Source: Roseateles saccharophilus (GTDB lineage Bacteria > Pseudomonadota > Gammaproteobacteria > Burkholderiales > Burkholderiaceae_C). From it: a stretch of 52,900 nucleotides of DNA. The translations under genes and the position numbers were made by a program. The stretch lies in the NCBI RefSeq assembly GCF_004342485.1, contig NZ_SMBU01000036.1:1-52900 (forward strand), given 5' to 3'. The notes beneath the pieces were generated by a model that searched no databases, was not told the DNA's origin, and saw only the letters and a program-made list of their open reading frames with translations. This document shows positions 17,894 to 35,874 of this stretch, one piece after another; position 1 is the stretch's first letter; the number at the start of each line of letters is the position of its first letter.

Positions 17894-17908
17894 GCAAGCG
17901 CTGTGCCA
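17894..17908 (-). promoter_or_regulatory. Sigma-54 promoter of the porin gene
   Basis: Read on the minus strand: TGGCACAGCGCTTGC, with GG and GC ten bases apart. It matches the -24/-12 consensus TGGCACG-N4-TTGC at all but one position and lies about 40 bases before the ATG. The rest of the gap (17909-18094) shows no gene. Confidence 0.75.
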
Positions 17909-18094
17909 GTGCCGGCCTGGAGCGGGCGGGGGCGTGGGATGCTGCGGCGCGGCGCAGCGGGCGGGGCAGAACGTGTCGTGCTGGCACGCGGCTGCGGGTC
18001 GCACCGGACGCCGGTTGTGGCGCGGGCCGCGTCGCGCGCTGCGCCGCGTTGCAGCGCGGCTGTGGCGGCGCGGAGCAGTGCCCGAGGGGTTTTG

Positions 18095-20407
18095 CTAGAA
18101 GCCGAGCTTCAGGCCGACGGACACGCTGCGCGGCGCGCCCGGCGCGAAGAAGGTCGCGTGGCGCAGCGGGTGGTCGCCGTTGGCGTTGGCCGGGAAGGGC
18201 TGGCCCTGGAAATTGCCCGCGGCGTCGAAGCCGGTGGGGCCGAGCTGGGCGGCCGTGCTGTAGGCGCGGTCCAGCAGATTGGCGACCTGGGCGAAGAGCT
18301 TGATGCCCTTCGCCGGCTTCCAGGCCGCCGTGACATTGAGCACCGCATGGCCGGCGCTGCGGCCGGGGCCGAGGTAGTAGACGCCGTCGGGCCGGTGCTG
18401 GCCGTTCTCGTTGCCGCGCGCGGGCGCGCCGCTCGTCGCGATGGCGTCGGCGCCGAGGCTCCAGGCCTCGCCGAGGTCCAGGTCGGCATAGAGCTTGAGC
18501 ATGCGGCGCGGCACCAGGGGGATGCGGTCGCCGGGGCGGATGGCGATGTTGCCGTCCACGCCGGGCCGGCCGGCACTGGCCGTGTCGTTGCTGCTGTTGG
18601 ACGCGCCGTTGACGGTCTCGGCCGAGCGGTAGCTGGCGTCCAGCAGCGTCAGGTTGGCGCCCGCCGTGAGCCCCCGGGCCGGCTGGACGCTCAGGCCCAG
18701 CTCAATGCCCTGGCGGCGCGTCCTGCCGAAGTTCTTGAAGTAGCCGAAGCCGGCCGCATCGTCGGCGACGAAGAGCAGGTCGTCGCGGTTGTCGGAGCGG
18801 AACAGGCCCAGGTTCCAGGCCAGCGGCGCGCCGGCCGCGCTGCGCAGGCCCGCCTCGACCGTGGTCGTGACGACCTGCTTGAGCGGCGGGTCGCCGGCGA
18901 AGGCATTGGGCAGCCGGCAGGGGTTGGCCGGGTCGGCGCAGCCGAGCTCGACGGAGGACGGGTCGCGGCTGCCCTGGCCGATGCCGGCCCAGGCATTGAC
19001 GCCGGCCACGGGGTCGAAGCTCAGGCCGATGGCCGGGTTGAAGCGGCTGAAGCGCTGCCTGCCGTCCAGCGAGCCGGGGCCGCCGCCGGGGTTGATGGCA
19101 TCGCGGTTGCGCAGGCGGCTGTCGTTGTAGCGGCCGGACAGGCTCAGGTGGGTGGCCGGGCCGAGCGTCAGCACGCTGCTCGCGAACAGGCTGAGCGTGC
19201 GCGTGCGGCCGAGCAAGTCCACGCGGCTATCGGCCGGCATCTCGCCGCTGCCGCTGACGCTGCGGTCGGGGTTGAGGTCGCCCAGCTCGGCGTCCTGCGT
19301 GAAATGGCTGGCGCTGAAATCGGCCGCGGCGCCGAGCAGCGATTTGCTCGCCAGCCCGAGCAGCGGGCCGTCGTAGCCGAGCTGGGCATTGAAGCCGGCG
19401 TTGCGCTGCTGGGTGCGGCTGCGGTGGATGACGCCGTTGGGGATGCCGGCGTCGCCGGGCTGGCCGAGCGCGTCGTCGTTGAGGTCGCCGTTGAAGCTGC
19501 GGCTGAGGATGGCGCGCGCGTAGGCGTTGCCGGCCAGCGTCCAGTGCTCGCCGAGGGCCTGCGACAGCGCGAGATTGACGAGGGCGGCGCGGTTCTTCGT
19601 GTTGTCGGGCCGGGTGTAGACGCTGGCGCGGTCGCGGGCCAGCAGGCGCTGCTCCTGCAGGCCGTTGCCGTTGAGGTCGGTGCTGGCCAGCGCGGCGCTC
19701 AGCGTCAGCTCGGAGTCGGCGCCGCGGTGGCCGAGCTTGCCGAACAGCTGGTTCACGTCGGAGGGCGAATCCACCCGCCAGCCGTCCTCGCGGAACTTGT
19801 TGCCGGCCACGAACCAGTGCCCGCCCTCGTCCGTGCTGCCGCCGTGCTCGAACTCCGCCGTGCGGCGGCCGAAGGCGCCGGCCTGCAGCTGCAGCGCGCT
19901 GCCGGCGTTCTTCAGCCCGTCCTTGGTCTGCACGCTGAGGGCGCCGCCCAGCGTGTTGAGGCCGAACAGCGGGTTGGAGCCGGGGTTGAGCGTGACGGAG
20001 GCGATGGCCACCTTGGGCACGAGGTCCCAGCTGACGACGTCGCCGAAGGGCTGGTTCAGGCGCACGCCGTCGACGTAGAGCGACAGGCCCTGCTGCGAGC
20101 CCAGCAGCGGCGAGGCCGTGTAGCCGCGGAAGTTCACGTCGGGCTGCAGCGGGTTGCCCTGCATCTCGTTGAGGTAGACGCTGCCCAGGCGCCGGTTCAT
20201 GAAGCTGGTGAGGTCCGCGGCCTGGCTGCGCTCGATGTCGGCCGCGCGGGCGGTCTGCACATTGGCGGCGATCTGGTCGCGCGGCAGGCCCAGGCCGGCG
20301 ACCGGCGACATGCCGACGACCTCGACCCGCTCGAGCTGGATCTGTGCATTCGCGGCCGATGCCGTGGCCAGGGCCAGCAGGGCCCAGCAGCGCCCGTTGC
20401 GGTGCAT
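18095..20407 (-). CDS. TonB-dependent outer-membrane receptor (first)
   Basis: A 770-residue receptor. A signal peptide (MHRNGRCWALLALATASAANA) precedes a TonB-box-like segment (RVEVVGMSP), a plug domain (IERSQAADLTSFMNRRLGSV, DGVRLNQPFGDVVSWDLVP, GLNTLGGALSVQTKDG) and a 22-strand barrel ending in Phe (SVSVGLKLGF). Cargo is unknown; in an island with a lanthanide-type quinoprotein, a metal complex, metallophore or PQQ are reasonable guesses. It lacks the GGAGACA ribosome site of its neighbours, because a palindromic element begins 7 bases upstream of the ATG. Confidence 0.88.
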   Translation of the reverse strand: MHRNGRCWALLALATASAANAQIQLERVEVVGMSPVAGLGLPRDQIAANVQTARAADIERSQAADLTSFMNRRLGSVYLNEMQGNPLQPDVNFRGYTASPLLGSQQGLSLYVDGVRLNQPFGDVVSWDLVPKVAIASVTLNPGSNPLFGLNTLGGALSVQTKDGLKNAGSALQLQAGAFGRRTAEFEHGGSTDEGGHWFVAGNKFREDGWRVDSPSDVNQLFGKLGHRGADSELTLSAALASTDLNGNGLQEQRLLARDRASVYTRPDNTKNRAALVNLALSQALGEHWTLAGNAYARAILSRSFNGDLNDDALGQPGDAGIPNGVIHRSRTQQRNAGFNAQLGYDGPLLGLASKSLLGAAADFSASHFTQDAELGDLNPDRSVSGSGEMPADSRVDLLGRTRTLSLFASSVLTLGPATHLSLSGRYNDSRLRNRDAINPGGGPGSLDGRQRFSRFNPAIGLSFDPVAGVNAWAGIGQGSRDPSSVELGCADPANPCRLPNAFAGDPPLKQVVTTTVEAGLRSAAGAPLAWNLGLFRSDNRDDLLFVADDAAGFGYFKNFGRTRRQGIELGLSVQPARGLTAGANLTLLDASYRSAETVNGASNSSNDTASAGRPGVDGNIAIRPGDRIPLVPRRMLKLYADLDLGEAWSLGADAIATSGAPARGNENGQHRPDGVYYLGPGRSAGHAVLNVTAAWKPAKGIKLFAQVANLLDRAYSTAAQLGPTGFDAAGNFQGQPFPANANGDHPLRHATFFAPGAPRSVSVGLKLGF

Positions 20408-20414
20408 GGAGTTA

Positions 20415-20577
20415 AGGCAACGCTGAACGAGTCCCTCGCGCGCAGCGCATCCCTGCTTGGGGCGGTCTGCTGCGTTGCAAATCCTCGCCGTAGCCCCAGC
20501 TACGGCTGCGGTTTGCGCCTTGCAGCCCATCCCCAACCAGGGCGCGCTGCATCGCGGGGACTTGTTCAACGTCGCCT
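20415..20577. mobile_element. MITE-like palindromic element
   Basis: The entire gap between the YVTN gene and the first receptor gene is one imperfect inverted repeat. The outer arms AGGCAACGCTGAACGAGTCC and (reverse complement of the right end) AGGCGACGTTGAACAAGTCC match at 17 of 20 positions. Inner arms continue (CCCTGCTTGGGG with CCCCAACCAGGG; CGCCGTAGC with GCTACGGC), so the RNA would fold into one long hairpin. No transposase is inside. It ends exactly at the YVTN stop codon. Confidence 0.8.
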
Positions 20578-21518
20578 CAGTGGATCACGACGCCCCAGGG
20601 CAGCTTGCCCACCGCCACGTCGGCCACCTTCTTCTGTGTCTCGGTGTCGATGACCGACACGGCGCCCGAGCGCCCGCAGGCGACATAGAGCTTGCGGCCG
20701 TCGGGCGTCAGCGCCATGTTCCAGGGCCGCTGGCCGACCGGGATGGTGGCGATGAAGGCCATGCGGTCCACGTCCAGCACCGAGACGGTGGCGTCGCCGC
20801 CGTTGGAGATGAAGACGCGCCGGCCGTCGGGGTGCACGCTGATGCCGTTGCTCTTGGGCCCGGCCATCAGCTTGTCCTGCACCGTGAAGCTCTGCGTGTC
20901 GATGACGTAGATCTCGCTGGACATCTCGGAGGCGACGAAGGCACGCCGCCCGTCCGGCGAGAAGCCGATGCCGCGCGGCCGCGTGCCCACCGGGATCTGC
21001 GCCACCTGGGCGCGCTTGGCCACGTCGATGACGTCCACCGCGCTGCCCTCCTCGGCACTGACCAGCACCCAGCGCCCGTCGGGGCTGAAGACGGCGTGCT
21101 CGGGGTTCTTGCCCTTCACCTTGACGCCGAAGCTGCGCGCCATCGTGCGCGTGTCGACGAAGACCACCTCGTTGCTCTCCTCCACGGCGGCCACCACCCA
21201 GCGGCCGTCGGGCGACTGGCCCAGGCCCTCGGGCGATTCGCCGAGCGGGATCTCGCCGGCCTGGCGGCGCGCGGCCAGGTCCAGCACGACGAGGCGGTTG
21301 CCGGGCTGGTCGCTGACGTAGGCGCGTCGGCCGTCGGGGCTGACGACGGCACCGCGCGGTTTGGCGCCGGCGGGCAGCTCGTAGAGCACGGCGTCGGTCG
21401 CCGTGTCGATGACGCTGAGCGTGCCCGAGCCCTCGTTGGAGACGTAGGCGAGCGGGCCTGCGTGCGCCGAGGCGATGGCCGCGGCGAGCAGGGTGAGGGT
21501 GGGCAGGACGCGGCGCAT
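20577..21518 (-). CDS. PQQ-catabolism-associated YVTN beta-propeller protein
   Basis: A 313-residue periplasmic protein with a signal peptide (MRRVLPTLTLLAAAIASAHA) and about seven YVTN-type blades (YVSNEGSGTLSVID, YVSDQPGNRLVVLD, FVASEMSSEIYVID, FISNGGDATVSVLD, YVACGRSGAVSVID), each with an SPDGR loop. Proteins of this kind form a known family encoded beside PQQ-dependent alcohol catabolism genes; their biochemical job is unknown. The start has GGAGACC eight bases upstream. It follows the second receptor gene by 13 bases and is last in the pedF operon before the palindromic element. Confidence 0.9.
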   Translation of the reverse strand: MRRVLPTLTLLAAAIASAHAGPLAYVSNEGSGTLSVIDTATDAVLYELPAGAKPRGAVVSPDGRRAYVSDQPGNRLVVLDLAARRQAGEIPLGESPEGLGQSPDGRWVVAAVEESNEVVFVDTRTMARSFGVKVKGKNPEHAVFSPDGRWVLVSAEEGSAVDVIDVAKRAQVAQIPVGTRPRGIGFSPDGRRAFVASEMSSEIYVIDTQSFTVQDKLMAGPKSNGISVHPDGRRVFISNGGDATVSVLDVDRMAFIATIPVGQRPWNMALTPDGRKLYVACGRSGAVSVIDTETQKKVADVAVGKLPWGVVIH

Positions 21519-21531
21519 GGCGGTCTCCGGT

Positions 21532-23658
21532 TCAGAAGCGGTAGGAAGCGTTGGCGCTGGCCAGCCAGCTGCGGCCCGGCGCGGGCTCGAAGAAGCGGCC
21601 GTTGCCGTCGTTGACGATGACCGAGCCGGCGTAGCGGCGGTTGGCCAGGTTGTCCACGCGCAGCAGCGCGCCGAAGTCCCAGGCGCCCAGGCTGAGCTGG
21701 TAGCCGGCATAGCTGGCCAGCGTCGCGTAGCCGGGTGCGGCGTCGCTGTTCAGGTCGTTGACATAGACCTTGCTCAGAGCCCGGCCTTCGAGGCCCACCC
21801 GCCAGCCGCCGCTGGGCAGCCAGGTCAGCGCGCCGTACAGCGCCGTCTTCGCGATGCCGGGGATGTGGTTGCCGGCGGCCACGGCCTGGTTGGCCGTGGC
21901 GCAGGGCGTGGCGGTGCAGGTCAGGAAGCCGTCGCGGTAGACGGCGTCCAGCCAGGTCGCGGCGAGCTGGGCCTGCAGCGTGGCGCCGAGCTGGAAGGCG
22001 CCCGAGGCCTCCAGCCCGCGGCGGCGGGTGGCGCCGGCGTTCTGGTAGGTGGCGCGGCCGGCCAGGTTGGTCTGCGTGACGATCTCGTGCTCGGTGCCGG
22101 TCTCGAACAGGGCCAGCGTGAGTTCGGCGCCCGCCCAGGGCCTGGCCTTGAGGCCGGCCTCGACGCTGTGGCTGAGCGAGGCCTGCAGGCCGAAGTTCAG
22201 GCCGGTGGCGCCGCTGGGCCGGTAGGCCAGCTCGTTGAGCGTGGGCGTCTCGAAGCCGCGGCCGGCGCTGGCGTAGGCGTGCAGGGCCTCGCTGAACGCA
22301 TAGCTCGCGCCCAGCACCGGCAGCGTGGCAGCGTAGTGCGCGCTGCCGCTGTCGTCGGGGTTGGTCTTGGTGATGTAGGCGTCCCTGGAGTTGAAGCCCA
22401 CGCTGGCGCGGCGCACGCCGGCGCTGAGCAGCCAGGCCGGCGTGGGCTGCCACTGGGCCTGGAGATAGGGGTCGGCGCTGCTGACGTCGTTGGTCTCGTT
22501 GCGGCGCAGCGCGCCTTGAACTCCCAATGCAGCACCGAGCGTCGTGCCGATGAAGTTCTGGTAGCCCAGGCGGTGCTCGCGCAGCTCGTCCGCGGCGATG
22601 CCGGCGACCAGGCTGGCCGTGCTGCCCTTCCAGCGCCAGCGCAGGTCGGCGCCCTCGTAGTCGCGCGCCAGGTCGATGACGCCGCCCGGGTGCAGCGGGT
22701 TGGCCTGGGTCGCGACCGGGATGGACTGGAGCTGCGCCGTCGTGCGGTGGCCGCGGTAGACCATCAGGCGCAGGCTGTTCTGCGCGTCGATACCGTGCTC
22801 CAGCACCAGGCCGCCCTGGTCCTGCTTCATCGTCTTGCGGGTGTTGAAGCTGATGGCCGATGGGTCCACGCCGCGCGGGTCGGCCTGCCATTGCGCCCGG
22901 CTCAGGCCCAGCGGGTCCTGGGCCTCGGGCAGCTCGACGCTGTTGGCGATGAGGGTCAGCTGGGTGTCGCTGCCCAGCTTCCAGTTCAGCCGTGCATTGC
23001 CCAGGCGGCGCTCGGCCTGGCTGTGCTGGCGGTAGCCGTCGGTCTCGAAGCGGCTGGCGCCCAGCGTGTAGGCGAAGCCGCCGGTCTTGCCGCTGGCGGA
23101 CGCGGCCACGCGGCGCAGGCCGTCGCTGCCGAAGGCCACGCCGGCGTCCACGCGCGGCGGGCCGCTGGGGGTCTCGGAATAGATGCTGATGACGCCGCCC
23201 GAGGAGTTGCCGTACAGCGCCGAGAACGGCCCGCGCAGCACCTCCACGCGGCCCACCGTGCCGAGCTCGACATTGGTGATCTGGCCCTGGCCGTCGGGCA
23301 GCGTGGCGGGGATGTCGTCCACATAGACGCGCACGCCGCGGATGCCGAAGTTGGCCCGCGCGCCGAAGCCGCGCACCGAGATCTGCACGTCCTGGGCGTA
23401 GTTCTGGCGGTCGCGCGCCAGCAGGCCCGGCACGGCGCCCAGGCCCTCGGAGATGTTGACTTGGGGCTTGCCGGCGCGCAGCGCGTCGCCGTCGATGCGG
23501 TCGACCGAGGCGGGCAGGTCGTAGGGCGAGGTCTCGGTGCGCGTGGCCGTGACGACGACGGGCTCGAGGACGGCGGGCGTGGCGTGGGCGGAGGCTGCCG
23601 TGGCTGCCGCCAGCGCGAGGGCCGTCCTTCGCGCCTGCTGCGCGAATCTGGTGTTCAT
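21532..23658 (-). CDS. TonB-dependent outer-membrane receptor (second, in the pedF operon)
   Basis: A 708-residue receptor. Signal peptide MNTRFAQQARRTALALAAATAASAHA, TonB box in EPVVVTATRTE, plug domain (NISEGLGAVPGLLARDRQNYAQDVQISVRGFGARANFGIRG is typical of PqqU/YncD-like and siderophore receptors), and a barrel ending SYRF. The start has GGAGACA. It sits 32 bases after the XoxJ-like gene and 13 before the YVTN gene. Cargo is not known; PQQ or a lanthanide complex fit the context, copper or iron complexes cannot be excluded. Confidence 0.9.
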   Translation of the reverse strand: MNTRFAQQARRTALALAAATAASAHATPAVLEPVVVTATRTETSPYDLPASVDRIDGDALRAGKPQVNISEGLGAVPGLLARDRQNYAQDVQISVRGFGARANFGIRGVRVYVDDIPATLPDGQGQITNVELGTVGRVEVLRGPFSALYGNSSGGVISIYSETPSGPPRVDAGVAFGSDGLRRVAASASGKTGGFAYTLGASRFETDGYRQHSQAERRLGNARLNWKLGSDTQLTLIANSVELPEAQDPLGLSRAQWQADPRGVDPSAISFNTRKTMKQDQGGLVLEHGIDAQNSLRLMVYRGHRTTAQLQSIPVATQANPLHPGGVIDLARDYEGADLRWRWKGSTASLVAGIAADELREHRLGYQNFIGTTLGAALGVQGALRRNETNDVSSADPYLQAQWQPTPAWLLSAGVRRASVGFNSRDAYITKTNPDDSGSAHYAATLPVLGASYAFSEALHAYASAGRGFETPTLNELAYRPSGATGLNFGLQASLSHSVEAGLKARPWAGAELTLALFETGTEHEIVTQTNLAGRATYQNAGATRRRGLEASGAFQLGATLQAQLAATWLDAVYRDGFLTCTATPCATANQAVAAGNHIPGIAKTALYGALTWLPSGGWRVGLEGRALSKVYVNDLNSDAAPGYATLASYAGYQLSLGAWDFGALLRVDNLANRRYAGSVIVNDGNGRFFEPAPGRSWLASANASYRF

Positions 23659-23690
23659 GGCTGTCTCCGGATGTTTTCTTGTCGGGCGGC

Positions 23691-24554
23691 TCAGGCGGGG
23701 CGCCAGGCCACCTTGTATTTGGCAAAGATCTCGCCCACGCGGCCGGCCTTCTCCAGGTCGTTGAGGGCCTGCTGCAGGGCGTGAGCGAGGTCGGTGGCGT
23801 CGCGCTTCACGGCCATGCCGGCGGCCCAGCCGTCGCGCGGCGCGCGTGGCAGGGGCAGGGGCTCGATGCGGTAGGCCGCGTCGCCCGCCAGCACCGTCTC
23901 CAGCTCCGAGGCCAGGCCGGCCGCGGCGCTCACCTCGCCGCGCTGCAGCGCGCGCGCGGCCTCGCAGCCGTCCTTCCACTGCGTCAGCAGCTGCTCTCGG
24001 TAGGCGCCGCCGTCCGCGCCGATCAGCAGCCAGCCCGCCAGGGTCTGGCCGGCCACGGCGACGCGGCGCTTGCCGAGCTGGGCCAGGCTGTCCAGCACCG
24101 GCAGCTCGTCCACGCGGCGCGCCAGCACGACATGCTCGCGGTAGTAGGGGCCGAAGATGCTCGCCTGCGGCGTGGCCTCGATCAGCGGGCGGTCCACCGG
24201 CACGTGCATCAGCACGTCGGCGGGGCCGTAGCCGAGGTAGTGGCCCTTCCAGACCATGTTGCGCAGGTCGTCGCCCATGTTCTCGTCGGCATTGAAGGGC
24301 AGCGGCGAGAACTTGACGCCGATGGCCTCGGCCAGCGCCTGGCCCAGCTCCACGTCGATGCCCTGGCCCTTCACGTGGAAGGGCGGCATGTCCTCGTACA
24401 GGCCCACCAGCAGGCGGCCGCGCTCGCGCACCTGGGCCAGCGTCGTGGCGCCGGCCTGGTTGCCTGCGAGGGCGCCGGCGGCGGCCCAGGCCAGCAAGTG
24501 CCGGCGGCTCAGGGAACGGTGCGCCGCGACAGGTTTGGGGGCACCGTGGTTCAC
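23691..24554 (-). CDS. Quinoprotein-associated periplasmic binding protein (XoxJ/MxaJ/PedG-like)
   Basis: A 287-residue family-3 binding protein. It starts with a GTG that overlaps the pedF stop (GTGA). The signal contains SRRHLLAWAAAGALAG, close to a Tat motif. The mature part has RLLVGLYEDMPPFHVKGQGIDVELGQALAEAIG and PADVLMHVPVD, as in binding proteins of methanol and ethanol quinoprotein clusters. No ABC ATPase or permease is present. Known XoxJ proteins are proposed to activate the quinoprotein rather than feed a transporter; that role is inferred here. Confidence 0.87.
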   Translation of the reverse strand: MNHGAPKPVAAHRSLSRRHLLAWAAAGALAGNQAGATTLAQVRERGRLLVGLYEDMPPFHVKGQGIDVELGQALAEAIGVKFSPLPFNADENMGDDLRNMVWKGHYLGYGPADVLMHVPVDRPLIEATPQASIFGPYYREHVVLARRVDELPVLDSLAQLGKRRVAVAGQTLAGWLLIGADGGAYREQLLTQWKDGCEAARALQRGEVSAAAGLASELETVLAGDAAYRIEPLPLPRAPRDGWAAGMAVKRDATDLAHALQQALNDLEKAGRVGEIFAKYKVAWRPA

Positions 24555-25027
24555 AGCGGCTTCTCCCGGCGGGTTTCCAGGTAGGCCTTGATCGCCCACA
24601 TCGCTTCCTGCGTGAACACGCCCTCGAAGGGCGGCATGTAGACCGCGCCGTTGCGGCTGCGGCCGTGGCGGATGGTGGTCAGGAAGTAGTCGTCGTTCTC
24701 CTTCACGCAGGCAGCCTTCTTGGCCTCGTCCTTCAGTGAGGCACAGTCGTTGTCCAGGCGGCGCAGGTCGGGCGCGATGCCGCCGGAGATGGCCTCCAGG
24801 CCGTGGCAGCGCGCGCAGTTCTGGTTGAAGGCCGAGGTGCCGACCTTGATCGCGGCCTCGTTGCCGCGGTAGGGGTTCTCGGGCCGCCAGCCCTCGCCGA
24901 GCTGGGGCAGGCTGGTGGTGTCCACGGCCTGCGGCGTGACGTTGCCGTGGGCCCAGGCCTGCACGGTGACCATGACGGCGGCGATGCACAGGCTGCCGGC
25001 GATGACCAGGGGTTGATTGAACTTCAT
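24551..25027 (-). CDS. pedF: Cytochrome c-550, PedF type
   Basis: A 158-residue periplasmic monohaem cytochrome. After a signal peptide (to about residue 26) the haem site is CARCH (Cys71, Cys74, His75) and the likely axial Met is Met131 in VYMPPFEG. Two more cysteines, Cys95 and Cys107, can form the extra disulfide seen in cytochromes of alcohol quinoproteins. In related bacteria it takes electrons from the PQQ alcohol dehydrogenase. It is the first gene of the operon pedF, xoxJ-like, receptor, YVTN, driven by a sigma-54 promoter 61 bases upstream. Confidence 0.9.
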   Translation of the reverse strand: MKFNQPLVIAGSLCIAAVMVTVQAWAHGNVTPQAVDTTSLPQLGEGWRPENPYRGNEAAIKVGTSAFNQNCARCHGLEAISGGIAPDLRRLDNDCASLKDEAKKAACVKENDDYFLTTIRHGRSRNGAVYMPPFEGVFTQEAMWAIKAYLETRREKPL

Positions 25028-25086: not shown

Positions 25087-25102
25087 TGCAAGCCACATGC
25101 CA
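25087..25102 (-). promoter_or_regulatory. Sigma-54 promoter of the pedF operon
   Basis: On the minus strand TGGCATGTGGCTTGCA: GG and GC ten bases apart, matching TGGCAYG-N4-TTGCA. It is nearly the same as the promoter of the alcohol dehydrogenase gene (TGGCATGGAGCTTGC). Confidence 0.8.
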
Positions 25103-25120
25103 GGGCCGGATTGCTCCAAG

Positions 25121-25149
25121 TTGACACAATGACCGCTCCGCGGTTTGAC
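25121..25149 (+). promoter_or_regulatory. Possible sigma-70 promoter of the regulator gene
   Basis: TTGACA, 17 bases, then TTTGAC, pointing toward the sigma-54 activator gene. The -35 is perfect, the -10 is poor. Confidence 0.3.
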
Positions 25150-25266: not shown

Positions 25267-27324
25267 ATGCCCACCATCGAGACCGAAGCACCGGGCGGCG
25301 CGGCGCCGCTGGCGCCGCCGCGCCAGGCCTTTATCGAGCGCAGCCACCAGCGCAGCGAAGCCCTGGGCCTGAAGCGCCACGAGAAGAGCGGCTTCGATCC
25401 GCTGGTCCGCAGCGACCTCAACCTCGCGCGGGAGCGCAACCAGCGCCTCTACACCCATGCCGCGCCGGTGATGCAGCTGCTCTACGAGCAGATCGTCAAC
25501 ACCGAAAGCATGATCGTGCTGACCGACGCCCAGGGCACCATCCTGCATGCCGTCGGCGACGACAGCTTCCTGGCGCGCGCCCACCGCGTCGCGCTGGCGC
25601 CGGGCGAGAACTGGGCCGAACATGCCAAGGGCACCAATGCCATCGGCACGGCCCTGTTCGAGGAGGCACCGACGCTGGTCCACGGCGGCGAGCATTTCAT
25701 GCACGCCAACAGCTTCCTGACCTGCTCGGCCTCGCCCATCTTCGACCCGCGCGGCAACATGCTGGGCGTGCTGGACGTGACCGGCGACCACCGTGGCTAC
25801 CACCAGCACACCATGGGCCTGGTGCGCATGTCGGCGCGCATGATCGAGAACCACTGGCTCTCGGACGACTACAACAACCGCCTGCGCCTGCACTTCCACA
25901 CCCGGCCCGAGTTCATCGGCACGCTGCTGGAGGGCATCCTCGTCGTGTCGCCCGAGGGCCGGCTGCTGGGCGCCAACCGCGCCGCGCTGGACCAGCTCGG
26001 CATGAGCGGCGCCGAGTTGCGCGTGCGCAGCCTCAGCAGCCTGTTCGGCACGACGCCGGCGGCGATCTACGACCACTTCCGCATGCCGCTGTCGCCGCCC
26101 ATGCAGCTCAGCCTGCCGACCGGCCAGACCCTGTTCGTCAGCGCCCGCTTCGACTGGCCGTCGCGGCCCGTCGTGGCCGGCCTGCACGCGGCGACCGACA
26201 CGGTGGACATGCCGGGGGCGCGCGAGCCCGCGCCGGCCGTCCCCGCCGCCGATGCCGTCGCCGATGTCGCGTTGGACGCCACCGGCGCCCAGCGCTTCTC
26301 CGGCCTGCAATACCTGCGCACCGGCGACCCGCAGCTCGAGACCGTCATCCAGAAGGTCAAGCGTGTGCTGGACCGCGGCATCCCGCTGCTCGTGCTGGGC
26401 GAAACCGGCACCGGCAAGGAGCTGCTGGCCCGCGCTGTGCACCACGACTCCAACCGGGCCCGCCAGCCCTTCGTGGCCGTGAACTGCGCCTCCATCCCCG
26501 AGAGCCTGATCGAGGCCGAGCTGTTCGGCTACGAGGAGGGCGCCTTCACCGGCGCGCGCCGCAAGGGGGCGCCCGGGCGGCTGGTGCAGGCCAACGGCGG
26601 CACGCTCTTCCTCGACGAGATCGGCGACATGCCGCTGCCGCTGCAGGCGCGGCTGCTGCGCGCGCTGCAGGAGCGCAGCGTGACGCCGCTGGGCAGCACC
26701 AAGTCCATTGCGGTGGACATCGCCGTCATCGGCGCCACCCACCGCAATCTGCGCGAGATGATCGCGGCCCAGACCTTCCGCGAGGACCTCTACTACCGCC
26801 TCAACGGCCTGGCCCTGCGCCTGCCGGCGCTGCGCGAGCGCACCGACATCGAGGCCATCGTGCGCCGCATCCTGCAGGCCGAACGCCCGCAGGACACACC
26901 CGAGCTCAGCCCCCAGGTGCTGGCCATGTTCCGCCGCTACCAGTGGCCGGGCAACATCCGCCAACTGGCCAATGTGCTGCGCACGGCGGCCGTGATGTCG
27001 GCCGGCGAGCGCCTGGTGACGACGGCCCACCTGTCCGACGACTTCCTCGAGGACATCCAGCGTGTCGTGGGCGTGCTGACACCGCCGCCTGCGCCTGCCC
27101 CCATGCCTGCGTGGCCGGCCTACGAGGCGGCGCCCGCGCTGCCGGCTCCGCCGCCGGTCGCGTTCGCGACCGCCGAGCCCGCCACGGCGCGCACGCTGGG
27201 CCAGGCCGAGATCGACATGATCCGCAACACGCTGGATGCGGTGGGCGGCAACATCTCGCTGGCCTCCAAGCAGTTGGGCATCAGCCGCAACACGATCTAC
27301 CGCAAGCTGCGCTGGAACACATAG
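25267..27324 (+). CDS. Sigma-54-dependent transcriptional activator, AcoR type
   Basis: A 685-residue activator. Residues about 60-210 form a GAF sensor domain ([33 protein letters not shown], as in AcoR/AcxR). A PAS-like segment follows ([28 protein letters not shown]). The AAA+ domain has Walker A GETGTGKE (about residue 378), the sigma-54 contact loop GAFTGA (about 425) and Walker [14 protein letters not shown]. The Fis-type helix-turn-helix ends the protein ([21 protein letters not shown]). The ATG at 25267 has AAGGA nearby. It lies between the genes whose five promoters have -24/-12 elements and is the obvious regulator; its ligand (alcohol, aldehyde or acetoin-like) is unknown. Confidence 0.92.
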
Positions 27325-27587: not shown

Positions 27588-27605
27588 CGGGCGAGTGAAC
27601 GTTGT

Positions 27606-27631: not shown

Positions 27632-27705
27632 CTTTCCCGAGGGGGTGGGGGCCAAACCCTGTGCCGATCTGGAGCAAAAACCCCGATTGATGGCGCTACT
27701 GCGCA

Positions 27706-27721
27706 AGGCACGGGTTTTGCA
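27706..27721 (+). promoter_or_regulatory. Sigma-54 promoter of the pqqB operon
   Basis: AGGCACGGGTTTTGCA, GG and GC ten bases apart, 63 bases before the pqqB ATG. It shares GGCACGGGTTYTGC with the aldehyde dehydrogenase promoter. Confidence 0.8.
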
Positions 27722-27783
27722 CCCGTTGGGGCATCGCCCTGAATCCCTGCTCCCATGTCCCGATTCCTTCTGCGGGGCTTCCC

Positions 27784-28719
27784 ATGAAGCTCCTCGTGCT
27801 CGGCTCCGGCGCCGGCGGCGGCTTCCCGCTGTGGAACTGCCATTGCCGGCAGTGCAGCGCCTGGCGTCGCGGCGAACTCGACGCCAGCGCGCGCACGCAA
27901 AGCTCCATCGCCATCTCGCAGGACGGCCTGCCCGGCGAGGGCTGGCTGCTCGTCAACGCCAGCCCCGACCTGCCCCAGCAGATCCGCGCCACCAAGGCCC
28001 TGCAGCCTGGCCACGCGGGTGACGTACCCATCCGCGCCGTCGTGCTGCTGGACTCGCGGCTGCACCATGTGGCCGGCCTGCTGTCGCTGCGCGAGAGCCG
28101 CGAGCTGGAGGTCTATGCCACGCCGCTGGTCTTCGAGGACCTGACGGCCGAGCTGCCACTGCTCAACGTGCTGGAGAGCTACTGCCGCGTGCGCTGGCGC
28201 ATGCTGCCCATCGCCGGCGACACGCGCAGCGCGAGCTTCGAGATCCCGGGCTTCCCGGCGCTGAGTTTTGCCGCCGTGGCCGTGCCGGCGCAGGCGCCGC
28301 GGCATGCGCGGCTGCGCAGCGACGCGGCCGGCGAATGCATTGCGCTGCAGGTGCAGGACAGGCGCACGGGCCGGCGCCTGTTCCTGTCGCCCGCCCTGGC
28401 CGGCGTGGGCGAGCCGGAGCTGGCCTGTATGCGCGAGTCCGACTGCGTCGTCGTCGACGGCAGCTTCTGGACCGAGCACGGCCCGCGCGAGGCCGGCGTA
28501 GGTCGTGAAAGCGCCAGCGACAAGGGCCATCTGCCGCAGCGCCGCCACGGCGAGCGCCCCGGGATGATCGACGTGCTGCGCTCCAGCGGCGCGCCGCGCA
28601 AGGTGCTGACCCACATCCGCCACAGCAACCCCATCCTCGACCGCGGCGGCGCCCAGCGCCGCGAGCTGGCCGAGCAGGGCATCGAGGTGGCGCACGACGG
28701 CATGGTGATCGAGCTGTGA
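27784..28719 (+). CDS. pqqB: PqqB, PQQ biosynthesis metallo-hydrolase
   Basis: A 311-residue metallo-beta-lactamase-fold protein that hydroxylates the PqqA-derived Tyr during PQQ synthesis. The N-terminus MKLLVLGSGAGGGFPLWNCHCRQC is diagnostic, as are LLVNASPDLPQQI, LLDSRLHHVAGLLSLRES and the ending HIRHSNPILD. Length is normal. pqqA, C, D and E are not in the window, so pqqB is separated from them. Its stop overlaps the next gene's GTG, which couples it to the NosR-like protein. Confidence 0.95.
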   Translation: MKLLVLGSGAGGGFPLWNCHCRQCSAWRRGELDASARTQSSIAISQDGLPGEGWLLVNASPDLPQQIRATKALQPGHAGDVPIRAVVLLDSRLHHVAGLLSLRESRELEVYATPLVFEDLTAELPLLNVLESYCRVRWRMLPIAGDTRSASFEIPGFPALSFAAVAVPAQAPRHARLRSDAAGECIALQVQDRRTGRRLFLSPALAGVGEPELACMRESDCVVVDGSFWTEHGPREAGVGRESASDKGHLPQRRHGERPGMIDVLRSSGAPRKVLTHIRHSNPILDRGGAQRRELAEQGIEVAHDGMVIEL

Positions 28720-30797
28720 GCTACATGGTCCGGCTGGTGTTGCTGCTGCTCATCGCCCTGGCGCCGCAGGCCCGGGCCGGCGTGATGACGCGCGAGGCCT
28801 TGCAGGGCCACTTCCCCGCGCCGCTGAGCGTGGGCGAGAAGGACGCCCAGCTGCCTGTCTGGCCCATCTTCAGGCAGGAGCTGACGAGCACCGTGCTGGC
28901 CGGCTATGTCTTCGAGTCCATCGATTTCGCGCCCATCCCCGGCTTCTCCGGCACGCCCATCAACCTGCTGGTGGCGCTGGACACCAAGGGGCAGTTCCTG
29001 GACGTGAAGGTGCTGTCGCACCACGAGCCGGTCTTCCTCGACGGGCTGGGGCCGGCACCGCTGTTCGCCTTTGCCGGCCAGTACGCGGGCCTGTCGCTGC
29101 GGCAGAACATCAAGATCGGTTCCAACAGCAACCGGGGCAGCCAGGCCGGCAGCGCCAACGTCTACATCGACGGCGTCAGCAAGGCCACGGCCTCGGTGCG
29201 CATCCTCAACCAGAGCCTGCTGGCCAGCGCGCTGCGGGTGGCGCGCGCCAAGCTGGGCTTTGCCGCCGGCGCCGACCCGGACCGCGTGGCGCGGGTGCGG
29301 CAGGACACGTTCAGGCCCATGGACTGGCAGGCCCTCGTCGCAGCCGGGCTGGTGCAGCGGGTGCGCATCACGCGCGGCACCGTCGAGCAGGCCTTCGCGG
29401 GCAGCGGCGTGGAGGAGGGCGTCGATGCGGGCCGCGCCCAGGACAGCTTCAGCGAGCTCTACCTGGCCTATCTGAACGACCCGGCCGTGGGCCGCAACCT
29501 GCTGAGCGAAGGCGGCTGGCAGCATTTGCTGGGCCGCATCGAGGAAGGCGACCACGCGCTGCTCGTCATCGCCACGGGGGCCTACAGCTTCGTGGACGAC
29601 AGGTTCGTGCGTGGCGCGGTGCCCGACCGGCTGACGCTGCAGCAGGGCGAGCTGCCGCTGGAGCTGCGCGACCTCGATCTGGACGACCCGCTGAAACTGC
29701 CGCCCGCGCTGCAGGGCGCCGACAGCAAGGTCTTGCGCGTCATCGGCCCGGCCGGGCTGGACCCGGCGCGCCGGCTGGACTTCGCGCTGCGCGTGACGCG
29801 CCAGAAGGGCATGCTGTTCGGCGAGCGCGTCAGCCGCAGCTTCGCCGTGCCCTACCAGCTGCCGGCCGACCAGGTCATCGTGCCGGAAAGCACCGACAAG
29901 GGCTGGCAGGCCATCTGGCGCTCGCGCGCCTGGGAGCTGGCCGTGCTGGCCGCCGCGCTGGCGCTGCTGGCCATGGTGCTGGCGCGGCCGCGCTGGATCG
30001 TTGCCACGCCGGCGCGGCTGGCGCGCTTTCGCACCGCCTATCTGGTCTTCACGCTGGGCTTCATCGGCTGGTGGGCGCAGGGGCAGCTGTCCATCGTCAA
30101 CCTGACGGCCACGATCCAGGCCCTCGTGGCCGGGCGCTCGCTGGACTTCCTGCTCTACGACCCCATCAGCGTGGCGCTGTGGGCCTTCACGGCCGTCACG
30201 CTGCTGGTCTGGGGGCGCGGCACTTTCTGCGGCTGGCTGTGTCCCTTCGGTGCGCTGCAGGAGCTGGTGGCGCAGGCCGCCCAGCGCCTGGGCCTGCGGC
30301 GCATCCGGCTGCATCGCAGCACCGATGCGCGGCTCAAGCGGCTCAAGTACGTCGTGCTCGTGCTGATCCTGGCGCTGGCCTTCAGCTCGCCGGTGTGGAC
30401 GGACCGGGCCGTGGAGGTCGAGCCCTTCAAGACCGTCATCACGCTGAACTTCGTGCGCGCCTGGCCCTTCGTGGCCTGGGCGGTCGGCCTGCTGCTGCTC
30501 AATGCCTTCGTCTACAAGGGCTTCTGCCGCTATCTGTGCCCGCTGGGTGCGGGGCTGAACCTGCTGGGTCGCGTGCGGCTGCTGCGCTGGATACCGCGCC
30601 GCGCCGAATGCGGCACGCCCTGCCAGACCTGCCGCCACCGCTGCGACTACCAGGCCATCCGCCCGGGTGGCGCCATCGTCTACGAGGAGTGCTTTCAATG
30701 CCTGGACTGCGTTGCCATCCACGACAGCCCGCAGCGCTGCGCGCCGCTGATCGCACAGGGGCGCCAGCGGGTGATTCCGCTGGCACCGGCGGCATGA
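28716..30797 (+). CDS. NosR/NirI-like FMN-binding, [4Fe-4S] polyferredoxin membrane protein
   Basis: A 693-residue inner-membrane electron-transfer protein. After a signal peptide a periplasmic FMN domain carries DGVSKATAS, close to the (S/T)GAT flavinylation motif; Thr158 would hold the FMN. About six membrane helices follow from residue 405. Two CxxxCP motifs (Cys505-Cys509 and Cys604-Cys608) and two ferredoxin-type clusters (Cys632/636/639/643 and Cys659/662/665 plus a Cys near 674) are seen. NosR moves electrons between quinol and periplasm for N2O reductase; no nos genes are here. The start is GTG 28716 or ATG 28725. Next to ApbE and pqqB it probably serves the quinoprotein system. Confidence 0.88.
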   Translation: MSYMVRLVLLLLIALAPQARAGVMTREALQGHFPAPLSVGEKDAQLPVWPIFRQELTSTVLAGYVFESIDFAPIPGFSGTPINLLVALDTKGQFLDVKVLSHHEPVFLDGLGPAPLFAFAGQYAGLSLRQNIKIGSNSNRGSQAGSANVYIDGVSKATASVRILNQSLLASALRVARAKLGFAAGADPDRVARVRQDTFRPMDWQALVAAGLVQRVRITRGTVEQAFAGSGVEEGVDAGRAQDSFSELYLAYLNDPAVGRNLLSEGGWQHLLGRIEEGDHALLVIATGAYSFVDDRFVRGAVPDRLTLQQGELPLELRDLDLDDPLKLPPALQGADSKVLRVIGPAGLDPARRLDFALRVTRQKGMLFGERVSRSFAVPYQLPADQVIVPESTDKGWQAIWRSRAWELAVLAAALALLAMVLARPRWIVATPARLARFRTAYLVFTLGFIGWWAQGQLSIVNLTATIQALVAGRSLDFLLYDPISVALWAFTAVTLLVWGRGTFCGWLCPFGALQELVAQAAQRLGLRRIRLHRSTDARLKRLKYVVLVLILALAFSSPVWTDRAVEVEPFKTVITLNFVRAWPFVAWAVGLLLLNAFVYKGFCRYLCPLGAGLNLLGRVRLLRWIPRRAECGTPCQTCRHRCDYQAIRPGGAIVYEECFQCLDCVAIHDSPQRCAPLIAQGRQRVIPLAPAA

Positions 30798-31780
30798 AGC
30801 GGCGCCAGGCGCTGCGGCTGGCGCTGGGCCTGGGCGCCCTGGCGGCCATGCCCGGGGCTGGCGCTGCCGCGCTGCACTGGGAGCGCCGCAGCCTGCTGGG
30901 CTTCGGCACCACGCTGAGCCTGCAGGCCGGGCACGAGAGCGCCGCCACCGCGCAGCGCGCGCTGGACGCCGCCGTGGCCGCGCTGCGCCGCATCGAGGCG
31001 CAGATGAACCTTTTCGACGCCGGCAGCGCGCTGGCGCGCCTGAACCGCGACGGCGAACTGCGCGACCCGCCGCCCGAGCTGCTGGCCGTGCTGCGCATCG
31101 CGCGGGACGTGTCGCAACGCAGCGGTGGCGCCTTCGACGTGACGGTGCAGCCGCTGTGGGAGGCCTGGGCCAGGGCCCAGCGCGAAGGCCGCCTGCCCGG
31201 CCCGCAGGAAGTGGCGGTGGCGCGTGCGCGGGTGGGTTGGCAGGCGCTGGAGCTGGGACCTGAGCGGCTGCGCTTCACCGCGCCCGGCCGGGCCGCCACC
31301 CTCAACGGCATCGCGCGCGGCTATGCGGCCGAACGCGTGCGCGAGGTGCTGGCCGCGCAGGGCATAAGGCATGCGCTGGTCGACGTGGACGGCTTCGCGC
31401 CACTGGGCCGCAATGCCGAGGGCCGGCCCTGGGCGCTCGGCATCGCCGACCCGCGCGCCGAATCCGCCTTGCTGGCCCGCCTGCTGACCGACGGCCGCTG
31501 CGTCTGCACCTCGGCCGACAGCCAGACCTTCTTCAGCCCCGACTACCGCCACCACCACATCTTCGACCCGCGCACCGGCTATTCACCGCCCCAGCTGTCC
31601 AGCGTCACCGTGGCTGCGGCCAGCGGCGCGCTGGCCGATGCGCTGACCAAGGTCTTCTTCATGGCCGGCCCCGCTCGGGCGCGCGAGGTGGCGCGGCAGT
31701 GGCAGGTCGATGCGCTGTGGGTGGACAAGGCCGGGCGCTGGGCCGCCACGCCCGGCTTGCGCAGCGTGCTGGCTGCTTAG
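30794..31780 (+). CDS. apbE: FAD:protein FMN transferase ApbE
   Basis: A 328-residue periplasmic flavin transferase that attaches FMN to Thr/Ser of exported proteins. An RR-containing signal (MKRRQALRLALGLGALAAMPGAGA) is followed by family motifs MNLFDAGSALARLNR, GGAFDVTVQPLWEAW, LNGIARGYAAERV, DVDGFAPLG and HHIFDPRTGYSP with the Mg-binding Asp region ALADALTKVFF. It overlaps the NosR-like gene (ATGA), so that protein's Thr158 is the obvious target. Its stop overlaps the convergent HiPIP stop by three bases. Confidence 0.93.
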   Translation: MKRRQALRLALGLGALAAMPGAGAAALHWERRSLLGFGTTLSLQAGHESAATAQRALDAAVAALRRIEAQMNLFDAGSALARLNRDGELRDPPPELLAVLRIARDVSQRSGGAFDVTVQPLWEAWARAQREGRLPGPQEVAVARARVGWQALELGPERLRFTAPGRAATLNGIARGYAAERVREVLAAQGIRHALVDVDGFAPLGRNAEGRPWALGIADPRAESALLARLLTDGRCVCTSADSQTFFSPDYRHHHIFDPRTGYSPPQLSSVTVAAASGALADALTKVFFMAGPARAREVARQWQVDALWVDKAGRWAATPGLRSVLAA

Positions 31781-32085
31781 CCCGGCGCCTTGGCCCAGGC
31801 GTTGCACCAGCCGTTTTTGGCGACCTGGGCCTTGCGCCCGAACATCGCGCAATTGCTCCACGCGTCGGTCGGCTTGGCCTGCCAGAACTGGCAGTTGGCG
31901 CAGTGCTGGCTGGCCTGGTGCTTGGGGAATTTGGCGGGGTCGACCAGCGTCGTGTCGTGCTTGTAGCCCAGCGCGACGGCGGTCTCGCTGGCTTCGTCGA
32001 CCGGGGTGGTCTGGGCCAGGGCCGGGACGGCCAGGCAGGCCGTGGTGGCCTGGAACATGAAAATGCGGCGGGTGGGGTGGGACAT
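31777..32085 (-). CDS. High-potential iron-sulfur protein (HiPIP)
   Basis: A 102-residue periplasmic electron carrier with one [4Fe-4S] cluster. Tat-like signal TRRIFMFQATTACLAVPALA; cluster ligands Cys62, Cys65, Cys79 and Cys94 in the HiPIP spacing (CxxC, then 13 and 14 residues). The start at 32085 was chosen because it gives the signal peptide; longer versions read into repeat sequence. It lies downstream of the alcohol dehydrogenase on the same strand. It may relay its electrons to an oxidase; this is inference. Confidence 0.9.
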   Translation of the reverse strand: MSHPTRRIFMFQATTACLAVPALAQTTPVDEASETAVALGYKHDTTLVDPAKFPKHQASQHCANCQFWQAKPTDAWSNCAMFGRKAQVAKNGWCNAWAKAPG

Positions 32086-32102
32086 GCTCGTTTCCAGATG
32101 CG

Positions 32103-32200
32103 AAGCGGAACGCGAGCCCCTCGAGCGACCGTCGTGGAACCGGCTTTGCCGGGCCACTGACGGTGCCCCCTGGGGGGCTCGCGAAGCGAGTACGGGGGGT
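32103..32200. repeat. G/C-run hairpin repeat between alcohol dehydrogenase and HiPIP
   Basis: GCCCCCTGGGGGGC next to CTCGC-gaa-GCGAG and a run of G. This sequence style also appears near 3030 and 16610. The hairpins may reduce read-through from the dehydrogenase to the HiPIP gene. Confidence 0.5.
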
Positions 32201-32201
32201 C

Positions 32202-33950
32202 TTATTTCGGCAGCTTGAAGACCCAGACCATGCCGCCCTGCTCCAGGTAGTTGACCTTCTTGGCCACGTCACCGCCCCACAGCGGCACCGCACCGCCCCA
32301 GCCGGACACGACGCTGATGTACTGCTCGCCGTTCTGCTGCCAGGACACCGGCGGCGCGACGACGCCCGAGCCGGTCTGGAATTGCCAGACCACCTTGCCG
32401 GTCTTGGCGTCGGCGGCCTTGAGCCAGCCTTCCGGCGTGCCCCAGAACACCAGGTTGCCGGCCGTGGTCAGCACGCCGCCCCACAGCGGCGCGCCGTTCT
32501 TGACCTCCCAGACGATCTTGCCGGTCTTGGGGTCCATCGCACGCAGCGCGCCGATGTAGTCGTCGTTGAGCGTCTTGATCGTGAAGCCGGCGCCCAGGTA
32601 GGCCGCGCCCTTCTTGTAGGCGATGGGCTCGTTCCAGATCTCCATGCCCCATTCGTTGGCGGGCACATAGAAGAGCTTGGTGTCGGGGCTGTAGGCCATC
32701 GGCATCTGGTTCTTGCCGCCCAGGAAGGAGGGCGCCGAGAACACCGAGTTGCCCTTCTTGCCGTCGGCCGCGGCGGTCGGGTCGCCGGGGCGGTTCTCGG
32801 CCACGAAGTTCGGGCGGCCGGTCTTCAGGTCGATGCCGGTGGCCCAGGTGATCTTCTTGACGAAGGGGAAGGCATTGGCCAGCTGGCCGTTGTTGGCGTC
32901 GATGGAGTAGAAGAAGCCGTTGCGGTCGGCCTTGCCGCCCATGCGCTTGCCGTCCATGTCGAAGGTGACGAACTCGTTCACGCCGTCGAAGTCCCAGCCG
33001 TCGTTGGGCGTGCCCTGGTAGTGCCACTTGATCTGGCCGGTCTTCACGTCGATGGCGACGGTGGAGCAGCTGAACAGGTTGTCGCCCTGGCGCAGGTGGC
33101 TGTTCCACGGTGCGGGGTTGCCGGCGCCGAAATAGGCCAGGCCGGTCTTGGGGTCGTAGGTGCCGCCCAGCCAGGTGGCCGCGCCGCCGGTCTTCCACAG
33201 GTCGCCCGGCCAGCTCTTGCCGGGCGTGCCGGACACGCCGTTCTCGATCTTCTTGCCGTCCTTGTCCCAGCGATAGCCCATGTGGCCTTCCACCGTCGGG
33301 CGGGTCCAGACCATCTTGCCGGTGCGCGGGTCGCGCGCCTCGACGCGGCCGACCACGCCGAACTCGCCGCCCGACACGCCGGTCAGCAGCAGGCCGTCCG
33401 CGATGATGGGCGCGGCCGTGGCCGAGTAGCCGGCGGCGTAGTCATCGACCTTTTCCTTCCAGACCACGTCGCCGGTGTTCTGGTCCAGCGCCACGAGCTG
33501 GGCGTCCAGCGTCGCGAAGATGACGAGGTTGTCGTAGAGCGCCGCGCCGCGGTTGACGACGTCGCAGCAGGGCATGATGCCCTCGGGCAGGCGGTGCTCG
33601 TACTTCCAGAGCTTTTTGCCGGTGGCGGCGTCCAGCGCGAAGATGCGCGAGTAGGAGGCCGTCACGAACATCTTGCCGTTGTGGATCAGCGGCTGCGACT
33701 CCTGGCCGCGCTGCTTCTCGCCGCCGAAGGAGAAGGCCCAGGCCGGCACCAGCTTGGCGGCGTTGCCGGTGTTGATCTGCTTGAGCGCCGAGTAGCGCTG
33801 GCCCTGCGTGCCCAGGCCCCAGGACAGGACTTCCTGGCCGGACTTGGCCGAGGTCTCGATCATCTGGTCGGTCACGGCGGCAGTGGCGCCGCCGGCGGCC
33901 GCGAGGCCGAAACTCATGGACAGCAATGCGGCGAGAGGTTTGAGTTGCAT
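32202..33950 (-). CDS. PQQ-dependent alcohol dehydrogenase, lanthanide-type (PedH/ExaA family)
   Basis: A 582-residue periplasmic quinoprotein oxidising primary alcohols to aldehydes. It has a signal peptide, the vicinal disulfide Cys128-Cys129 ([10 protein letters not shown]), tryptophan-docking blades, and the metal ligands Glu196 (GGEFG), Asn278 (GAGNPAPWN) and catalytic Asp320. Two residues on is Asp322 (GWDFDG). An Asp there marks lanthanide-dependent enzymes (PedH, XoxF); calcium enzymes have Ser or Ala. No haem c motif is present, so it is a quinoprotein, not a quinohaemoprotein. The start has AGGAGACA upstream and a sigma-54 promoter 70 bases away. Confidence 0.93.
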
Positions 33951-34019
33951 GGTGTTGTCTCCTGTGTTGGATGCGATGCACCGCCATGCCGATGCGGCGA
34001 GCGGATCACCCGCCAAAGC

Positions 34020-34034
34020 GCAAGCTCCATGCCA
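34020..34034 (-). promoter_or_regulatory. Sigma-54 promoter of the PQQ alcohol dehydrogenase
   Basis: Minus strand TGGCATGGAGCTTGC, GG and GC ten bases apart, matching TGGCAYG-N4-TTGC. The transcript would carry a leader of about 58 bases. Confidence 0.8.
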
Positions 34035-34288
34035 GTCGAAATCGCGGCGAGATGGAGCAGTCCAGGGGCTTGCCGGCCGCCGGCATGCAGGGTTCCACCG
34101 GGGCCGCTGTCAGCGCCGTGAGCAGGCTGCGCCGTGCTGTGACAGCGGGGGCGTGGAGCACCGCCGGCCGCGGCGCCGGCGCCGGGCTGTGCCGTCCTGT
34201 GCGTCACTGCTCCAGGCTGCAACAGCCGGCGGGTGATTTCCCTTGGCCCGGCGGCCCGCGGCAGGCCCGGAAGCCGTCTTCTGCGGCC

Positions 34289-34303
34289 TGGCACGGGTTC
34301 TGC
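34289..34303 (+). promoter_or_regulatory. Sigma-54 promoter of the aldehyde dehydrogenase
   Basis: TGGCACGGGTTCTGC, GG and GC ten bases apart; only one base (C for T before the GC) departs from the consensus. It lies 48 bases before the ATG. Confidence 0.78.

Positions 34304-34350: not shown

Positions 34351-35874
<1,524 letters not shown>

Follow-up and report, generated by a model that had tools for sequence, protein, structure and literature searches.

How a bacterium switches on its genes for alcohol oxidation together is the question raised by a 52.9-kb stretch of DNA from Roseateles saccharophilus (hereafter, the window), which encodes a pyrroloquinoline quinone (PQQ) alcohol dehydrogenase (ADH), an aldehyde dehydrogenase (ALDH), the cytochrome PedF, a second PqqB, a porin-like protein and, in their midst, a transcriptional activator. 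A preliminary description of the window had read GG-N10-GC elements before five of these genes as sigma-54 promoters of one regulon, built around the activator. Our comparison of sequences leads to a similar answer: The best explanation, in which we place high confidence, is that the sigma-54 activator and a set of palindromes jointly switch on the alcohol-oxidation genes. Four operons, those of pedF, pqqB, ADH and ALDH, very probably form a real sigma-54 regulon under a dedicated activator, and the porin gene perhaps belongs to it as well. A single regulon is favored by the conservation of the sites, a shared palindrome, its helical phasing, the co-occurrence with PQQ dehydrogenases, and the absence of the elements from the ped genes of Pseudomonas putida; the porin gene fits it least well.

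All five GG-N10-GC elements were present where they had been described, give or take one base, and each has ten bases between GG and GC. They precede the porin gene (CTGGCACAGCGCTTGCG, 17893-17909, minus strand, a −24/−12 element 38 bases from the start codon), the pedF operon (CTGGCATGTGGCTTGCA, 25087-25103, minus strand, 59 bases), the second pqqB operon (AAGGCACGGGTTTTGCA, 27705-27721, plus strand, 62 bases), ADH (CTGGCATGGAGCTTGCG, 34019-34035, minus strand, 68 bases), and ALDH (CTGGCACGGGTTCTGCG, 34288-34304, plus strand, 46 bases), so that the claimed distances of 40 to 70 bases come out from the coordinates as 38 to 68. For scoring, we used the sigma-54 consensus YTGGCACG-N4-TTGCW; of its 13 scored positions, each of the five elements fits 11 or 12. 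GG and GC stand in a TGGCAC-N5-TTGC context, except that the pqqB element has AGGCAC instead. A scan of the window recovered all five, but five of the ten sites scoring at least 11 were others, and the score alone is thus no proof of a promoter. The pattern TGGCAY-N5-YTGC occurred 87 times in the whole genome (5.77 Mb) versus 64 times for the reversed control, and six times in the window versus 0.8 expected from the genome average; four of these six are among the described sites, and the pqqB element, which begins with AGGC, falls outside the pattern. The genome has one match to rpoN. A further sigma-54-like site (12 of 13, 40704-40720, minus strand) lies nine bases before the open reading frame (ORF) 39948-40694.

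Because single sigma-54 matches mean little in this genome, we compared relatives, namely 40 stretches around activator orthologues from the same family plus the loci L039-L041. A site was counted where at least 10 of 13 positions matched, GG and GC included, within the 300 bases before a target gene; genes were dropped at identities below 50% (below 35% for pqqB, porin, nosR, and activator) or coverage below 40%, as were those with fewer than 120 upstream bases or with an alignment starting over 40 residues into the protein. By this measure, the site was kept before pedF in 35 of 36 relatives, before ADH in 11 of 13, before ALDH in 8 of 10, before the porin gene in both of two, and before pqqB in 18 of 24, a count in which some rows, at only 35-45% identity, may represent other pqqB copies. 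The background was 360 of 4000 (9%) random 300-base stretches. A second ADH set, consisting of the window's gene and the 29 best of a family search (four loci being common to the first set), had the site in 29 of 30. The activator gene itself was preceded by a site in 9 of 43 cases and nosR in none of four relatives, and the genes inside the pedF operon scored at most 9 in relatives, with at most 8 before the TonB-dependent receptor. Sister genome G030 retained all five sites, including that of the porin gene, and sister genome G156 retained four, with no porin gene found in the stretch fetched. This conservation makes chance matches unlikely for the sites of pedF, ADH, ALDH, and pqqB.

The proposed activator is a protein of 685 amino acids (25267..27324, plus strand) whose translation contains the GAFTGA motif, as had been described. 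Its N-terminus is of the ligand type, with matches to PF01590 (GAF) and PF08448 (E 2.8e-5) and none to a receiver domain in the Pfam scan. It is followed by the AAA+ domain (PF00158), PF25601, and a C-terminal Fis-type helix-turn-helix (HTH; PF02954), and the combination of an AAA+ domain with GAFTGA and a C-terminal Fis HTH agrees with the AcoR type that had been assigned to it. The genome contains 14 matches to this activator, itself included, of which the other 13 reach only the AAA+ and C-terminal part. As counted by eye, this gene and pedF are transcribed divergently in 33 of the 40 stretches.

A count of short words over 90 upstream regions brought out half sites of the TGCTCCA/TGGAACA type, and the palindrome TGYTCCA-N3-TGGARCA was found 83 times in these regions at 11 or more of 14 positions (versus 4.6 in shuffles) and 45 times at 12 or more (versus 0.2). 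Since the palindrome had been derived from the same 90 regions, we tested it on 26 fresh ADH regions outside the discovery set, 22 of which contained it at 11 or more (versus 1.5 in shuffles). We conclude that it is probably the binding site of the activator. The window has three candidate copies: TGTGTCAACTTGGAGCA (25112..25128, minus strand), centered at about −44 of pedF; TGTGCCGATCTGGAGCA (27660..27676), at about −64 of pqqB; and TGCTCCAGGCTGCAACA (34208..34224), which is common to ALDH (about −99) and ADH (about −208). In the window and 12 relatives, the pedF palindrome is centered only ~44 bases before the predicted start, whereas elsewhere it lies further out; this palindrome may act on the divergent activator gene too. 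In form, the palindrome is TGT-N11-ACA, and TGT/ACA repeats spaced 10-12 bases have been reported for fifteen groups of clostridial sigma-54 activators and likened to FhlA/NifA sites (PMC6615313). Another word from the counts, GGAGACA, was discarded as an operator, as it resembles a ribosome-binding motif; this word lies near the starts of pedF, ADH, ALDH, and their relatives, in 50 of the 90 upstream regions versus 3.6 expected.

The distances between palindrome centers and promoters were periodic with ~10.9 bp (R = 0.57, n = 94 unique sites), and none of 5000 jittered sets gave as high a value. The phasing persisted when the sites closest to the promoter were removed (R = 0.55, n = 79, 0 of 2000 sets) and was found for ADH alone (R = 0.64, n = 33, 0 of 2000), for pedF minus near sites (R = 0.63, n = 22, 4 of 2000), and for pqqB (R = 0.66, n = 15, 26 of 2000), although all of these figures overstate independence owing to the kinship of the genomes. 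No phasing was seen in look-alikes scoring 8-9 (R = 0.09, n = 712). In sister genome G030, the pqqB and ADH palindromes each lie 10 bp farther out than in the window, i.e., by about one helical turn. The putative operators thus appear to sit on a fixed face of the helix, in keeping with an activator of the AcoR type.

These elements suggest the following mechanism. A one-component enhancer-binding protein (25267-27324) would sense a signal, most likely an alcohol or its aldehyde product, by its N-terminal GAF/PAS part and would assemble on the TGYTCCA-N3-TGGARCA palindromes. From there, it would contact sigma-54 RNA polymerase at the GG-N10-GC elements and open the promoters by ATP hydrolysis, so that the lanthanide-type ADH, the ALDH, the PedF operon, and the second pqqB with its NosR-like and ApbE genes would be co-induced. 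A single palindrome would serve both divergent promoters, those of ADH and ALDH, and the porin gene would probably be induced as well.

The ADH at the center of this regulon (32202..33950, minus strand; TIGR03075, the methanol/ethanol family, above the curated cut-off) reads GWDFDG, with an extra Asp two residues past the catalytic Asp, and Asp occupies this position in 30 of 30 loci. We take the extra Asp to mark lanthanide enzymes; on that basis, the earlier assignment to the lanthanide-type quinoproteins holds, and the enzyme is probably rare-earth-dependent. Its best matches in the PDB are 6zcv and 6zcw, and it is the only dehydrogenase over the TIGR03075 cut-off in the genome, of the Asp type. 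Across the family, a close activator (best match at least 786 bits) was found in 40 of 299 genomes, and all 40 have a PQQ dehydrogenase, versus 81 of the other 259; with a looser activator set (E 1e-150), the counts were 75 of 98 versus 46 of 201. Nineteen other ADHs of activator-bearing genomes had a sigma-54 site in six cases and a palindrome in two (null 11% each). The six of 19 exceed the null and are unexplained, the null having been measured on loci that partly hold true sites; these six PQQ dehydrogenases with sigma-54-like sites (L278, L281, L284, L286, L291, and L292) mostly lack the palindrome.

Of twenty ADHs taken from genomes in which no activator match reached E 1e-150, only two had a sigma-54 site but seven had the palindrome (null again 11% each), three of the seven scoring 13 or 14 of 14. 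These seven palindromes in activator-free control genomes led to a group of regulators that lack the AAA+ domain. We fetched eight loci, seven from these genomes plus L301, whose genome encodes a full activator as well. In six of the eight (L294, L295, L296, L297, L298, and L301), a gene matches the activator over its N-terminal part only. A palindrome of at least 12 precedes the dehydrogenase in all six, and none of at least 12 was found in the other two. Sigma-54 scores are at most 9 in five of the six, and in L301, there was none among the sites listed at 11 or more. Five of the AAA+-less proteins were scanned: they align to the window's activator at 29-32% identity with the entire AAA+ part absent, and the Fis HTH was matched in all five, GAF in four, and AAA+ in none. 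The dehydrogenases of these loci share 35-38% identity with the window's ADH, and the three that were read (L295, L301, and L297) have a tail with CXXCH. In each of the six loci, a stretch resembling GGGNAAWYCCGA, recognized by eye, comes after the palindrome. In L294 and L298, a TonB-receptor-like gene lies between the AAA+-less regulator and the dehydrogenase.

The occurrence of the same palindrome beside AAA+-less Fis-HTH genes supports its assignment as the site of the Fis-type domain. It further suggests that promoter logic has been swapped between the full activator and its AAA+-less relatives. We lean slightly toward a view in which two promoter logics share a single operator code and a single type of sensor: At the lanthanide-type dehydrogenase, the full-length protein would act through sigma-54, whereas the AAA+-less twins would read TGTTCC-N5-GGAACA, placed upstream of a second conserved element, at promoters of a different PQQ dehydrogenase that lack good sigma-54 sites. 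On this view, the sigma-54 machinery would have come or gone with sensor and operator unchanged in kind. If true, the AAA+-less twins would be a natural test of gain or loss of sigma-54 control.

The activator is not the only candidate regulator in this genome. Its main pqq genes are on a different contig (C15; pqqE by TIGR02109, the others by eye), and a scan upstream of them found neither a sigma-54 site of at least 10 nor a palindrome of at least 11, so we rejected them as members of the regulon. Adjoining them are a histidine kinase (L212:7649-9010) and a LuxR-type regulator (~9010-9636, plus strand), 29% and 37% identical to a P. putida pair that we take, from its position beside a dehydrogenase, to be PedS2/PedR2. 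The best-scoring kinase match lies elsewhere (C6) and covers the kinase core only, and of the ten matches from a genome-wide search for the kinase, none fell on the contig of the window; a PedS2-like kinase beside ADH was thus not found. R. saccharophilus is, judging from these resemblances, host to both kinds of regulator, a sigma-54 activator and a PedS2/PedR2-like pair, and the suggestion that sigma-54 replaces the two-component systems known from Pseudomonas was too strong. In the P. putida stretch, two PQQ dehydrogenases, PedF, an aldehyde dehydrogenase, and PqqB are present without a sigma-54 site of at least 10 or a palindrome of at least 11; the two dehydrogenases read WDYDG (Asp type) and WDFSG (Ser type). 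With one such enzyme in the R. saccharophilus genome, a rare-earth switch between two enzymes would be unneeded.

Several observations weigh against a regulon controlled by the activator through these palindromes. The pedF palindrome is only ~44 bases from the start, and enhancers usually lie farther away. The porin promoter has no palindrome of at least 11 of 14 in the window or in G030, and none of that score was found upstream of the sigma-54 site in 7 of 35 cases for pedF, 2 of 8 for ALDH, 4 of 18 for pqqB, and 1 of 11 for ADH. Phasing for ALDH alone is weak and not convincing (R = 0.74, n = 9, 119 of 2000). No sigma-54 site of at least 10 precedes the ADH of L041 and L160, the ALDH of L178 and L187, the pedF of L187, or six pqqB genes, and two of the 29 sites in the second ADH set (L215 and L223) sit ~240 bases out, perhaps by chance. 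The relatives are, moreover, mutually related, and their counts are not independent. At the cut-off used, 23 of the 98 genomes with an activator-like match (E 1e-150) lack a PQQ dehydrogenase. Among 13 loci examined from the search that gave L039-L041, palindrome and sigma-54 site were paired in only six, which indicates that the code fades with distance. Locus L039, from Variovorax sp. WS11, does have such pairs, and its activator gene adjoins pedF. Genome-wide, the palindrome with up to two mismatches occurred 31 times versus 21 for the control and is not specific alone.

The palindrome was dropped as a genome-wide marker of further regulon members. We read 15 of the 31 occurrences with their flanks; one is the ADH-ALDH site of the window, and four of the other 14 (L195, L202, L203, and L204) have a sigma-54 site of at least 10 within 350 bases. 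The best of these four, L204, lies between ORFs resembling clpX and lon and was taken as chance.

Other accounts of the five promoters fare less well. That all of them are chance matches in DNA of 70.6% GC appears extremely improbable: GG-N10-GC is admittedly short, and good matches in the genome number 87 versus 64 in the control, but conservation, positions, and phasing tell against it, the conservation counting for pedF, ADH, ALDH, and pqqB; the porin site may be a chance match. The sigma-54 promoters could also be real and be driven by another activator that owns the palindrome, for example, one of the LuxR type as cited for exaA of Azospirillum (PMC12826043); the genome does contain a PedR2-like regulator as well as the 13 further matches to the AAA+ part. 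We regard this as quite improbable in view of the divergent position of the activator gene beside pedF in 33 of 40 stretches (by eye), the TGT-N11-ACA form, comparable to the TGT/ACA repeats reported for fifteen groups of such sigma-54 activators (PMC6615313), the recurrence of the palindrome at dehydrogenase genes close to AAA+-less relatives with the same Fis HTH, and the lack of such a palindrome before the ped genes in the P. putida stretch, which has the kinase pair.

A further account accepts the regulon but leaves the on/off decision to the kinase/regulator pair by the main pqq genes, with the sigma-54 activator only tuning expression. The resemblance to the P. putida pair and the position adjoining the main pqq genes would fit such a hierarchy; we nevertheless judge it unlikely, as the promoters of those pqq genes bear neither a sigma-54 site of at least 10 nor a palindrome of at least 11, and no link was found between the pair and the promoters of the window. 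Control by the window's own activator thus stays our preferred reading, with the porin gene a probable member but the weakest one: The element is present there and kept in G030, but no palindrome of at least 11 was found, nor was a porin gene found in the G156 stretch.

The proposed regulation resembles known systems in part. In Azospirillum brasilense Sp7, exaA is reported to be sigma-54-dependent and under the LuxR-type EraR (PMC6115532, PMC12826043), so that sigma-54 dependence of a quinoprotein alcohol dehydrogenase, predicted here, has been reported before; that system uses a LuxR-type response regulator, whereas in the window an AAA+ enhancer-binding protein would serve at least four operons through a palindrome of its own. 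Alcohol dehydrogenases of clostridia are controlled by sigma-54 and AdhR (PMC7017808), and AdhR of Clostridium beijerinckii is likewise a sigma-54 activator with upstream sites at alcohol dehydrogenase genes (PMC7017808, PMC6615313), but its targets are iron-containing enzymes of solvent-forming clostridia rather than a periplasmic PQQ oxidation. BmoR of Thauera butanivorans is, by description only, a similar alcohol-responsive sigma-54 activator (PMC6366067, PMC8899819); its target is an alkane monooxygenase, unlike in the window. The passages on the BmoR operator in PMC8899819 print no complete sequence, and neither TGTTCC nor GGAACA was found in its text. The ped genes of P. putida are regulated by PedR1 and PedS2/PedR2 (PMC6115532, PMC13390443). 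They share PedF, a PQQ dehydrogenase, and an aldehyde dehydrogenase with the window, but the stretch read has neither element and has both an Asp-type and a Ser-type enzyme, where R. saccharophilus has one, of the Asp type. The regulatory logic that had been proposed would differ from that of P. putida ped and has precedents in exaA and AdhR. In the open-access literature, we found no description of such a regulon in the host's family or of the AAA+-less twins, a weak negative since subscription papers were mostly outside its scope. For lanthanide-type alcohol oxidation in this family, where no regulatory model was found, the window supplies a defined cis code together with a candidate activator, and it predicts substrate induction through sigma-54.

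The remaining genes of the window surround these elements. Downstream of the activator lie the second PqqB (27784..28719, plus strand; TIGR02108 above the curated cut-off), a NosR-like membrane flavoprotein with 4Fe-4S motifs (28716..30797, plus strand; PF12801, PF04205, and NF046105 at 601 bits, below the cut-off of 1000), and an ApbE-type flavin transferase (30794..31780, plus strand; PF02424). What had been called the pqqB operon does have the element and the palindrome, but its pqqB is a second copy, accompanied by apbE and a NosR-like gene, and the main pqq genes are found elsewhere. A high-potential iron-sulfur protein (HiPIP; 31777..32076, minus strand; PF01355) follows, and the NosR-like flavoprotein, ApbE, and HiPIP between pqqB and ADH (28716-32076), which the preliminary description did not mention, form a possible electron route. 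Beyond ADH, acetaldehyde dehydrogenase ExaC, our ALDH, is encoded at 34351..35874 (plus strand; NF050026 above the curated cut-off).

On the other side of the activator, all on the minus strand, cytochrome c-550 PedF (24551..25027; TIGR04494 above the curated cut-off) is first in its operon and overlaps a periplasmic solute-binding protein (23691..24554; PF00497). Then come a TonB-receptor-like protein (21532..23659) and a beta-propeller-like protein (20577..21519), both ORFs named by eye without a Pfam family at 0.001; the former reads as a receptor, yet has no Pfam match. A TonB-dependent receptor (18095..20407; PF00593, PF07715) is the final gene of the possible pedF operon, and the porin-like gene (16721..17854) is an ORF named from the preliminary description and by eye, with no Pfam or NCBIfam match at 0.001. 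Metal uptake is a conceivable role for the TonB-type receptors and the propeller-like protein (18095-23659) that the possible pedF operon encodes.

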